Source: Notolepis coatsorum
Taxonomy: Eukaryota; Chordata; Actinopteri; Aulopiformes; Paralepididae
DNA length: 64,000 nt
NCBI GenBank assembly: GCA_963971535.1
Contig: OZ020585.1
Span: forward strand, 28,692,131-28,756,130
Direction of reading: 5' to 3'
Every line of letters begins with the position of its first letter. Positions within the stretch are counted from its first letter, which is position 1. Under the pieces are notes generated by a model, which had not been told where the DNA came from, ran no database searches, and saw only the letters and a program-made list of their open reading frames with translations. Positions 20,301 to 32,300 of this stretch are shown here, piece after piece. The position numbers and the translations under genes are program-made.

Positions 20301-23300
20301 CGACAACACAGAAGGTTAACTGCCACATGACAGCAGGTTAACCCTTTTCACTACCACACTACAGAAGGTTAACCCTTTACTATCACACTACAGACGGTTA
20401 CATTACATGAAGTTAACCGTCTGTAGTGTGATAGTATTTTTTCTTTTGTATTTATTTATTAACACAGAGTTAAACAAAAGTCAAAGAAAATGCATAATAA
20501 CCATATTGTGAAGGAGAAGTTAGAATCCTAGAGGCTTATCGAGAACTTCCCCTGTTTTGTAAAATCAAAACATACAAAAATATACATATTATTTTTTAAA
20601 TACCAGTAATACATTCAAAAGATGTGTCAACACAAACATACATACACACAGTACATACATGCATATACTGTAATGTATAATACTGCATACATAATAATAC
20701 ATAACCACCCACCCACCTGCCTACAAACCTACCCACCCACATAACCAAATGCACACCTACATGTATGACCTATTTATCTATCTACTACATTTCCGTTTTA
20801 TACCGTTCTGAATATGAGTATAGTTTGGGTGCTTCTGAGTAATTCCAGAGAAAGACGCGATAATAGCGTTTTAGTGGAATACACTAAACACGTAATTTTT
20901 TGCCTGATTATCGAATCTTCCTGAAATCAATGCTAGATCATCATTATTATCCTTCCTCGTGCAAGCATGAAATGTGAAGATGAGATGAATGAGTGCTAGC
21001 CCATATTATGTTACAATAACATATGTAAGGAAAGATCAGACTATAATACAGGATTAAAAAACAACTTCTATGTATCAATGAACACACCTCCCTAATTATA
21101 CCTACTGACTTCATTGCTTTTTTTACAAACATGATCAATGTGTTTTTTCCAATTGAGTTTATCATCAACTAAGATCCCTAAAAACTTTGTTGAAGTTACT
21201 TGTTTGATTTCAGTGTCGCTGATTAATAGCTTTGCCTCCTTTTTCGAATAACTTTTACCTTTAATACAATACCAAAATACAATAAAATTAGATTTTTCTA
21301 CATTTGACGATAGCTTATTAGTCTGGAACCAATCTGAGACACAAGATAAACCATCATTGGCTTCCCTAATTAATACTGCAAAATTCTCATGTGACATTAT
21401 AATGTTGGTGTCATCAGCAAACAAGATCGAGAATACTCTAGGAGATACCCTAGCAAAATCTTTTATATAAATAAAAAATAAAAGGGGGCCAAGTATAGAG
21501 CCCTGAGGAACCCCACAGACTAGCTTTGCCCTGTCAGAGTCATCGCTATTAATGGAAACAAACTGTTCCCTATTATAATGATAGTCACTGAGCCATTTAA
21601 TCACGTCGCCAGCCAAACCATACCTCTGAAGCTTTGATATAAGTATTTTATGGTCCACAGTATCGAAAACTTTGGATAAATCCAGAAATATATCAATTGA
21701 AAATTGCTTATTGTCTAGTGCATCTGTGATTATATCAATAAACTGTGACAGCCATGTAAGTAGAATGTTTTTGTCTGAAACCGTATTGATGTTCATATTA
21801 TATTATTGTCATTAAGATGTTTCAAAATTCTGGTATAAACCAGCTTCTCCAATATTTTAGACATGGAGGGTAATATCGAAATCGGTTGGTAATTGGAAAA
21901 TAAGGATGAGTCACCAGATTTAAACAAAGGTATAACTTTTGCCACTTTCAAGTATCCTGGAACACCTGTTTCCAGGGACAGTGAAAATACGTGGTTCAAT
22001 GGCTCAATTATTGAAGGTAATACCTCTTTAAGCAGACTACTTTTAATATTATCATAACCTGCTGCTGAGTTTTTTTTAATTTAAAATAATATCTTGTATT
22101 TCTTCAGAGGTAGGTGGTTCAAATATAGACATAGATGGGTACTGACCTTGAATCTTGTCAAGTGGACAGTTATTTGTACTCTTTCTAGCCAAGGAAATTC
22201 CGATGTTTACAAAATAATTATTGAAACCATTTGCAATCTCTGAGTTTGTGTACAGGTATGTTCCGTTTCCATCGACAAAAGTAGATGGAAATGAAACGGT
22301 ATGCCTTTTTTTTTTATTAAGTAATTGATTTATGACTTTCCATGTGGATTTTATGTTGCTGGCAGCTTCTTTAAATTGATCAGAATAATATGTATTTTTT
22401 GCTGCAAATGGTTAACCTTCTGTAGTGTGGTAGTGAACGGGTTAAATTGCAGAAATTAACCTCGAGGTCGGGCGGCTAACGAGGGGGCCACGCACTAAAC
22501 GATCCGTAGCATATCGCTTTCAAGCCACCAGAGCCCTTTATTTCACACTTAAAACAGTCCTTTTTGACCGTCTGTATTCCTTCCTCCGGCCTCCAGGCCT
22601 TCCTGCTGCCGTCCTGCGAGGCCTCTGCCACCCGGAAGGTGATCAAGGTGTACAGGAAGTGGATCCTGCAGGACAAGCCCACCTTCATGACGGAGCCAGA
22701 GAAGAGCAGCCAGGAGGAGGAGACGGAGGAGACCAGCTCAGAACAGCTGCTGAACACTGAGGCTGACAGCACGCACGCACAGGTCAGATACACACTACTG
22801 ATTAACACACACACACGCACGCACAGGTCAGATACACACTCTACTGACTAACGCACACACACACACGCACAGGTCAGATACACACTCTACTGAATAACAC
22901 ACACACACACACACACGCACAGGTCAGATACACACTCTACTGACTAACACACACACACACACACACACACGCACGCACAGGTCAGATACACACTCTACTG
23001 ACTAACACACACACACACACGCATGCACAGGTCAGATACACACTACTGACTAACACACACGCACGCACAGGTCAGATACACACTCTACTGACTAACACAC
23101 ACACACACGCACGCACAGGTCAGATACACACTCTACTGACTAACACACACATGCACAGGTCAGATACACACTACTGACTAACACACACACACACACATGC
23201 ACGCACAGGTCAGATACACACTACTGACTAACACACACACACGCACGCACAGGTCAGATACACACTACTGACTAACACACACATGCACGCACAGGTCAGA

Positions 23301-29300: not shown

Positions 29301-32300
29301 CTACACCATGAACACTCAGACATGGTCAGTCATGTACACTACACCATGAACACTCAGACATGGTCAGTCATATACACTACACTACACCATGAACACTCAG
29401 ACATATACACTACACTACACCATGAACACTCAGACATATACACTACACCATGAACACTCAGACATGGTCAGTCATATACACTACACTACACTACACCATG
29501 AACACTCAGACATATACACTACACTACACCATGCACACTCAGACATATACACTACACTACACCATGAACACTCAGACATGTACTACACCATGAACACTCA
29601 GACATGGTCAGTCATATACACTACACTACACCATGAACACTCAGACATATACACTACACTACACCATGAACACTCAGACATATACACTACACTACACCAT
29701 GAACACTCAGACATGGTCAGTCATATACACTACACCATGAACACTCAGACATGGTCAGTCATATACACTACTCTACACTACACCATGAACACTCAGACAT
29801 ATACACTACACTACACCATGAACACTCAGACATATACACTACACTACACCATGAACACTCAGACATGGTCAGTCATATACACTACACTACACTACACTAC
29901 ACCATGAACACTCAGACATATACACTACACTACACCATGAACACTCAGACATATACACTACACTACACCATGAACACTCAGACATGGTCAGTCATATACA
30001 CTACACCATGAACACTCAGACATGATCAGTCATATACACTACACCATGAACACTCAGACATGGTCAGTCATATACACTACACTACACCATGAACACTCAG
30101 TCATGTACACTACACCATGAACACTCAGACATGGTCAGTCATATACACTACACTACACTACACCATGAACACTCAGACATGGTCAGTCATATACACTACA
30201 CTACACTACACTACACCATGAACACTCAGACATGGTCAGTCATATACACTACACTACACCATGAACACTAAAGCAATGTCCAAACATGAGACAATTCAAA
30301 CTGATGTATAAGGAAATGATGTTCACAAGGTACAGGGATGAGGAAGGGACTTGATATTCACGGGTGTTTACATTTTTATTTTATTTCTTTCATGTTTTAC
30401 ATATATAGTTTTTGTTTTTTTGTTTTGCATATATATATATATATATATATATATATATATATATATATATATATATAATATATTTTTTTTTATGTTTTAA
30501 AATAGTACACTCATTTGAGTAGTGGAAAAGGGGTAGGATTAAATAAGTGTATACTTCTTCCTACTCCTTTTCGAACATGTAGATTGAGTTGTGTTTTGCT
30601 TTTGTTATTGTTTGTTTGTATTCATTGCATGTTCGAAATAAAGATTAAAAAATACATATACACTACACCATGAACACTCAGACATATACACTACACTACA
30701 ACTACACCATGAACACTCAGACATGGTCAGTCATGTACACTACACCATGAACACTCAGTCATGTACTACACCATGAACACTCAGACATGGTCAGTCATAT
30801 ACACTACACCATGAACACTCAGACATGGTCAGTCATGTACACTACACCATGAACACTCAGTCATGGTCAGTCATGTACACTACACCATGAACACTCAGAC
30901 ATGGTCAGTCATGTACACTACACCATGAACACTCAGTCATGTACAACACCATGAACACTCAGACATATACACTACACTACACTATGAACACTCAGACATA
31001 TACACTACACTACACCATGAACACTCAGTCATGTACTACACCATGAACACTCAGACATGGTCAGTCATGTACACTACACCATGAACACTCAGACATGGTC
31101 AGTCATGTACACTACACCATGAACACTCAGTCATGTACAACACCATGAACACTCAGACATATACACTACACTACACTATGAACACTCAGACATATACACT
31201 ACACTACACCATGAACACTCAGACATGGTCAGTCATGTACACTACACCATGAACACTCAGACATATACACTACACTACACTATGAACACTCAGACATATA
31301 CACTACACTACACCATGAACACTCAGACATGGTCAGACATATACACTACACTACACTATGAACACTCAGACATATACACTACACTACACCATGAACACTC
31401 AGACATGGTCAGTCATGTACACTACACCATGAACACTCAGACATGGTCAGTCATGTACACTACACCATGAACACTCAGTCATGTACTACACCATGAACAC
31501 GCAGACATGGTCAGTCATATACACTACACCATGAACACTCAGGCATGTACTACACCATGAACACTCAGACATGGTCAGTCATGTACACTACACCATGAAC
31601 AGTCAGACATGTCATGTACACTACACCATGAACACTCGCTTTCTCTCTCACTCTCTTTCTCTCTATTCCTCTCTCTCTTAACACATTGAGGACCGGCCGG
31701 CGCCGTCTAATATGTGGCTGGAGGACAAAGCTTTGTAAACAAACCGATGTGACTTTGTACAGCTATATCTATACTTTATAGTATTGCTATCTGTCCATTC
31801 TCATTGTCACTTGAGTGCATAAACCGTGCCTTCATAATGGCTTAAAGAAAAAAAATCCATCGGTTGGTTGTCATTTTATAGCGCCGTGAATATAAGGTTT
31901 ATCGCACTTTTCGTCTCATATATTTTCTGGGAAGCTAGATATGAGGCTAAAGGCTACTAACGTTATATAGAACGGCATTTCTGTTGTATATATTCGAATG
32001 AAATAAAACAAAATGCTTATCATCCGGACTATTCCAGAGCATCTATGGATGAAATGGGGGCGGCGGGGATGCCGATTAGTATTATTGATTAGCAATAGAG
32101 TGTCCGTGCAAGTAGCCACATTCACTGATCGATTGCTTGCGTTTTACAACAAGCTCCAATCCGGCTCTAATTTAGGTTAATAATGTCTTAGCCGGCAGCA
32201 TTTCGCCCTTATCGATCGGCATCTGGTAGATCGATATGCCCATTGGCCGATCATAAATCCCATTATTCCAGGCTGAAATCTGCTAATCGAAACGTGAACA

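Follow-up and report, generated by a model that had tools for sequence, protein, structure and literature searches.

The closest described relatives of the elements considered here are the mirages of amphioxus. In these, an exon/intron boundary has been duplicated in tandem in the manner of a minisatellite. They are described in Adh3, the globin genes BflGb6 and BflGb9, troponin C and PGBD5, and are formed from units of 10–160 bp that keep the AG/GT signals in many, not all, units (PMC3087553, PMC3902484). Regular splicing is reported to be undisturbed by them (PMC3087553). A minisatellite in human IFI6 (6-16, G1P3) contains multiple splice donors, with two downstream units used and three mRNAs formed (PMC4526556); the study concerned is Turri et al. 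1995, judged by its title as cited in PMC3618361. In the Rogers model of intron gain, introns arise via the tandem duplication of AG/GT segments (discussed in PMC3087553). Passages on a sea bream myostatin-2 gene describe intronic repeats only (PMC3045353). Here we describe tandem arrays that copy the end of an exon together with its 5′ splice site (the donor) in RALGAPA2 of the fish Notolepis coatsorum. The window, meaning the whole stretch of 64,000 nucleotides that was analysed, is located at C6:28692131-28756130 in a genome of 3.42 Gb.

Three consecutive RALGAPA2 introns open with tandem arrays of 25, 33 and 59 units (arrays 1, 2 and 3, Table 1). The first unit of each array begins within the exon, from 13 to ~22 nt before its end, and each carries the 5′ splice site. 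The gene was identified from the joined exon translations, which score 812 bits against 9qwp_A, a PDB chain that bears the name Ral GTPase-activating protein subunit alpha-2. The alignment of the joined translation is unbroken across all three junctions, so that the arrays adjoin authentic exon boundaries of a real gene. Mis-set exon ends, which the first-pass annotation had itself raised as an objection, are thereby ruled out, and its description of three introns that each start with a minisatellite copying their own exon end and donor is borne out.

Table 1. Exons, arrays and associated features of RALGAPA2 in the window. A slash marks the exon/intron boundary; TRF, Tandem Repeats Finder; ORF, open reading frame.
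Feature	Position	Strand	Description	Basis
Exon preceding array 1	22597..22782	+	RALGAPA2 exon, end ...ADSTHAQ	alignment to 9qwp_A
Array 1	22770..23915	+	complete units 30-58 bp; 13 nt exon + donor CAG/GTCAGA; 25 donor copies	TRF, unit listing
Exon preceding array 2	25419..25553	+	RALGAPA2 exon, end ...GIQPTLQ	9qwp_A alignment; start from sequence
Array 2	25539..26492	+	unit 25-35 bp; 15 nt exon + donor CAG/GTCTGA; 33 copies	TRF, unit listing
Exon preceding array 3	28156..28304	+	RALGAPA2 exon, end ...MNTQTW (split codon)	alignment to 9qwp_A
Array 3	28283..31637	+	unit 26-53 bp; ~19-22 nt exon + donor ATG/GTCAGT; two insertions inside	TRF, unit listing
First insertion in array 3	28440..29231 (approximate limits)	+	open frame, which we take to be retroelement-like	sequence, ORF
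Second insertion in array 3	30270..30658 (approximate limits)	.	contains (AT)n tract	sequence, TRF
33 bp array (contrast case)	36076..36493	+	pyrimidine-rich units; stops just before acceptor; no exon bases copied	
Two-copy duplication	38060..38205	+	end of exon ...NNVRQKAS + donor GTGAGC; 38163 copy GT to GC	

The three arrays differ in how well the donor is preserved. In array 1 CAG precedes GTCAGATACACAC in 25/25 copies, and the 16 bases around the donor are identical in every one. Array 2 contains GTCTGAAA in 33 copies, with CAG/GTCTGA intact in 31. Array 3 has 59 unit starts, comprising 27 with ATG/GTCAG and 32 lacking a donor. The boundary dinucleotides are AG/GT in arrays 1 and 2, and TG/GT in array 3. 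A fourth intron represents the two-copy stage, where the donor at 38091 is duplicated once, at 38163. Among the cases whose far ends were inspected, array 2, the paralog array P4 and the kinesin locus L148 are three in which the last copy enters unique intron with a donor, as expected from tandem duplication of the junction.

The arrays resemble mirages in that the unit spans an exon/intron boundary, is tandemly repeated and adjoins the authentic boundary. The window units (25-58 bp) fall inside the 10-160 bp range described for mirages, and GT donors are kept in many of them. They differ from mirages in the vertebrate host, in the number of copies (up to 47, compared with 3 in one described BflGb6 haplotype and 6 in the other), and in that only donor boundaries are affected in two RALGAPA genes whereas both kinds of boundary are described in the amphioxus globins. 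The IFI6 minisatellite has a 12 bp unit. The window shares with it a minisatellite that carries multiple potential splice donors; use of the downstream copies in the window would mostly break the frame, and the IFI6 structure is known from one gene and has a short unit. Arrays 1 and 2 repeat an AG/GT-bearing segment, the raw material of the Rogers model, but no new intron is seen, and the exon ends on either side of the array-bearing introns agree with 9qwp_A. The structure is thus already known from amphioxus mirages and human IFI6, and the suggestion that it belongs to no named class of element does not hold. What is new is the vertebrate host, the size of the arrays and their recurrence. 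No report of recurrent donor arrays in a vertebrate genome was found in open-licence full texts, a search that left most subscription papers outside.

We interpret the arrays as mirage-type minisatellites that arose by tandem duplication across the donor and are tolerated since the first copy still splices, and give this a probability of about 0.7. A local tandem duplication, by slippage or microhomology repair, would copy a segment that starts in the last exon bases and extends past the donor into the intron; ordinary minisatellite turnover would then lengthen the array. Such a duplication should do little harm, since normal mRNA would still be made from the first donor, the one attached to the exon, later copies being intronic. 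An equal event across an acceptor or within an exon would alter the protein; such a selective filter would explain why the arrays occur at donors only in the two RALGAPA genes. In these two genes arrays span 6/24 donors and 0/24 acceptors, the latter placed by hand (Fisher P = 0.022).

The units of arrays 2 and 3 are local. Searched against the genome of the fish, allowing 3 mismatches at most, all 16/16 and 28/28 matches respectively lie at this locus, and a single mobile unit common to all three arrays is ruled out for these two. A dispersed minisatellite or mobile element would be present at many other sites; at up to 3 mismatches arrays 2 and 3 have none and array 1 has two. The copied exon part encodes QPTLQ in array 2 (QALLQ in 9qwp_A) and MNTQTW in array 3 (MNKKTW in 9qwp_A). 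Since these residues are partly common with 9qwp_A, in both arrays the exon most likely came first. Independent amplification of each junction, proposed in the first-pass annotation, is supported for arrays 2 and 3 by their restriction to this locus; it is less certain for array 1, the core of which has further matches on C32 and C1.

Donor arrays recur in other genes, in agreement with the earlier suggestion of a recurrent process at exon–intron borders. In a RALGAPA paralog, located on C4, three introns in succession bear arrays, at positions other than those in the window gene. One (57 bp x5.7) has the exon part KYMVNQ (KFMVIQ in the window gene) with donor GTATTA, and another (39 bp x8.6) has YQPILG (YKPLLG in the window gene) with donor GTCAGT; in these two the copied residues are partly common with the window gene. 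The third (67 bp x47) includes ~56 exon nt in each unit. The introns that bear arrays in the paralog have none in the window gene. No counterparts of the three window exons were found in the paralog. Separately, a CT-rich array precedes one acceptor of the paralog, like the 33 bp array of the window.

The myosin search gave 145 matches, from which 30 loci were fetched. One of the 30 is a case (L031), with a 37 bp x7.6 array at GTGAGT that includes 2-3 exon nt by eye, having been extended by eye past the TRF start. For kinesin, 116 of 123 matches were used (six of those dropped reach the profile end, and one is a weak but qualifying match); 96/116, ending at profile position 312 or earlier, were kept, and 80/96 were fetched, forming 63 paralog groups. 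Donor-spanning arrays are present in a KIFC-like family (one group holds 7 of the loci, and an eighth, L111, lies outside it), in L089, in L148 and weakly in L094. L148 (15-441) has a 42 bp unit of 14 residues that stays open in frame; GTAATG follows the earlier copies and GTAAGT only the last. L134 was rejected as a case, its array starting ~7 nt within the intron. Also not counted were L105 and L142 (arrays start after the donor), L114 (exon-end-like copies ~320 bp downstream) and L126 (a weak 15 bp repeat).

Among the KIFC-like copies, L078, L080-L083, L085, L086 and L111, which lie on several contigs, have a common 56 bp exon-end array with differing copy numbers, and L084 is without it. 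Copies with and without the array are material for timing array turnover.

A minisatellite-crowded genome might have arrays starting anywhere, some of them at exon ends, with a reader noticing a cluster. The window is indeed rich in arrays (20 after merging, 9.8 kb together). The fitting null is how often a donor would fall inside an array's first unit by random placement, because arrays running through coding exons would break them, and on this null chance becomes unlikely as the explanation. In the window 3/16 donors lie in a first unit, compared with 0.14 by random placement (P = 0.00026, 100,000 simulations placing 18 arrays, with the pieces of array 3 joined and periods chosen by hand); this P is post hoc, because the window was chosen for these arrays. 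In the paralog the figures are 3/8 and 0.11 simulated (P = 0.00009), for eight donors of which the last four are placed by tblastn ends alone, with no donor placed for the first paralog exon. In the kinesin genes a script using a fixed position counts 3/63 groups, and four when L148 is added by hand, its exon end being at position 51; intronic anchors average 0.66 and reach 3.0 at most. The Poisson P is 0.0047 for four cases and ~0.03 for three (by hand), with all 80 fetched loci included, some of whose match ends are not exon ends. Chance also fits poorly with two paralogs each hit at three consecutive introns, the introns being different in each.

Several points weigh against duplication across the donor as the general explanation. 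In the paralog test four of the eight donors are placed by tblastn ends only, the kinesin script count taken alone gives P of only ~0.03 with some intronic anchors also at 3.0, and the acceptors of the 6/24 and 0/24 comparison are hand-placed. The last unit is without an intact donor in arrays 1, 3 and P3, and L094 has just 2 exon nt and 2.5 copies. By plain coverage, measured as the recurrence of 24-mers (thus coverage and not array starts), junctions do not clearly exceed intronic anchors: kinesin junctions are covered in 4/50 compared with 10.5% of intronic anchors, and window donors in 4/15 compared with 100/514 anchors; in the paralog 3 of the 4 donors given are covered. This test leaves out 18 paralog copies, 11 loci without a clear donor, one low-complexity locus and window donor d15. 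A genome-wide three-word AGGTRAGT search gave 11,882 matches, compared with 7,525 for the reversed word. Among the matches listed on C1, arrays counted by hand are barely denser for the donor word (16 in 70.6 Mb) than for the reversed word (14 in 79.1 Mb), several of the control arrays being near-simple repeats. The coverage figures and the C1 array density both count in favour of chance. Genome-wide enrichment of donor-spanning arrays is likely but unproven. If recurrence does hold genome-wide, it would provide many natural tests of how splicing picks one among identical donors, and of how duplicated AG/GT segments could turn into new introns. More tentatively, in this fish lineage tandem duplication may start preferentially at exon 3′ ends, perhaps coupled to transcription or splicing, with several percent of introns bearing donor arrays. 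Were that so, the genome would amount to a continuing natural experiment on how a 5′ splice site is chosen when many are identical, and on the first steps of intron gain.

The downstream donors bear on whether the copies are useful. Among the intact ones in the window, 1/80 keeps the frame open (0/24, 0/30 and 1/26 in arrays 1-3). As most would break the frame, it is probably the first donor that counts, and to judge from the reading frames the copies are probably tolerated rather than useful; the idea that any copy can serve is not supported. Tolerated copies agree with amphioxus mirages, reported as not disturbing regular splicing. Counting on the other side, L148 is open in frame, as are copies 2 and 3 of the paralog array P3 (+39 and +78, by hand), and L148 is a possible exception to the frame-breaking nature of downstream copies. 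Selection could instead have retained the arrays at weak donors, if U1 captures a weak 5′ splice site more readily when it is present in additional copies. In RALGAPA2 five donors in succession carry C at +3 (22783 GTCAGA, 25554 GTCTGA, 28305 GTCAGT, 35583 GTCAGT and 36744 GTCAGA), and overall this is so for 6/11 array donors compared with 8/62 non-array donors, two of the 8 being in RALGAPA2 (Fisher P = 0.005). The uniform 16 bases around the array 1 donors are also consistent with such selection. The association was found after looking, with three of the six array cases having prompted the question, the kinesin donors picked by script and the paralog non-array donors left out. The overall donor score is not different between array and non-array donors (P = 0.12). 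In a U1 small nuclear RNA search aimed at the +3 C donors, 42 of 44,260 first candidates were scored, and the 5′ ends were not readable. The donorless units of array 3, the GC of the 38163 copy and the frame-breaking that use of most downstream copies would cause all speak against selection for many donors, which we regard as improbable.

For array 1 alone, a dispersed minisatellite may have invaded the exon end, where it now supplies the donor. This array is not locus-specific. Its 29-base core has 21 genome matches, of which 18 lie in the window and the other three on C32 (2) and C1 (1); flanking sequence is common to the C32 and C1 sites by eye, and no host-gene exon was recognised beside the array at the C32 site. 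The exonic THAQ, the last residues before array 1, is not conserved in 9qwp_A. At up to 3 mismatches there are just two other sites, with few diverged units each, and export from RALGAPA2 is equally possible. That array 1 derived from the exon and that it invaded the exon are thus two options, and we consider invasion a real but lesser possibility. An assembly artefact is most improbable as the source of the arrays. Tandem arrays are error-prone and the copy numbers may be off, but the units vary in sequence and length, insertions lie within array 3, and comparable structures are seen in several genes, which lie on different contigs.

L007 and L068, on different contigs, have common flanks by eye and a few diverged array 1 units each, which suggests a low-copy dispersed repeat. 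A 30 bp minisatellite (GGTTAACCCTTTCACTACCACACTACAGAA, with close variants) is present at 20297-20400 of the window and at the unrelated loci L021, L092 and L142, and looks like a dispersed minisatellite family. Inside an intron there is also a direct duplication of 2.18 kb (46802-51174), the two copies of which (46802-48985 and 48991-51174) are 99.8% identical.

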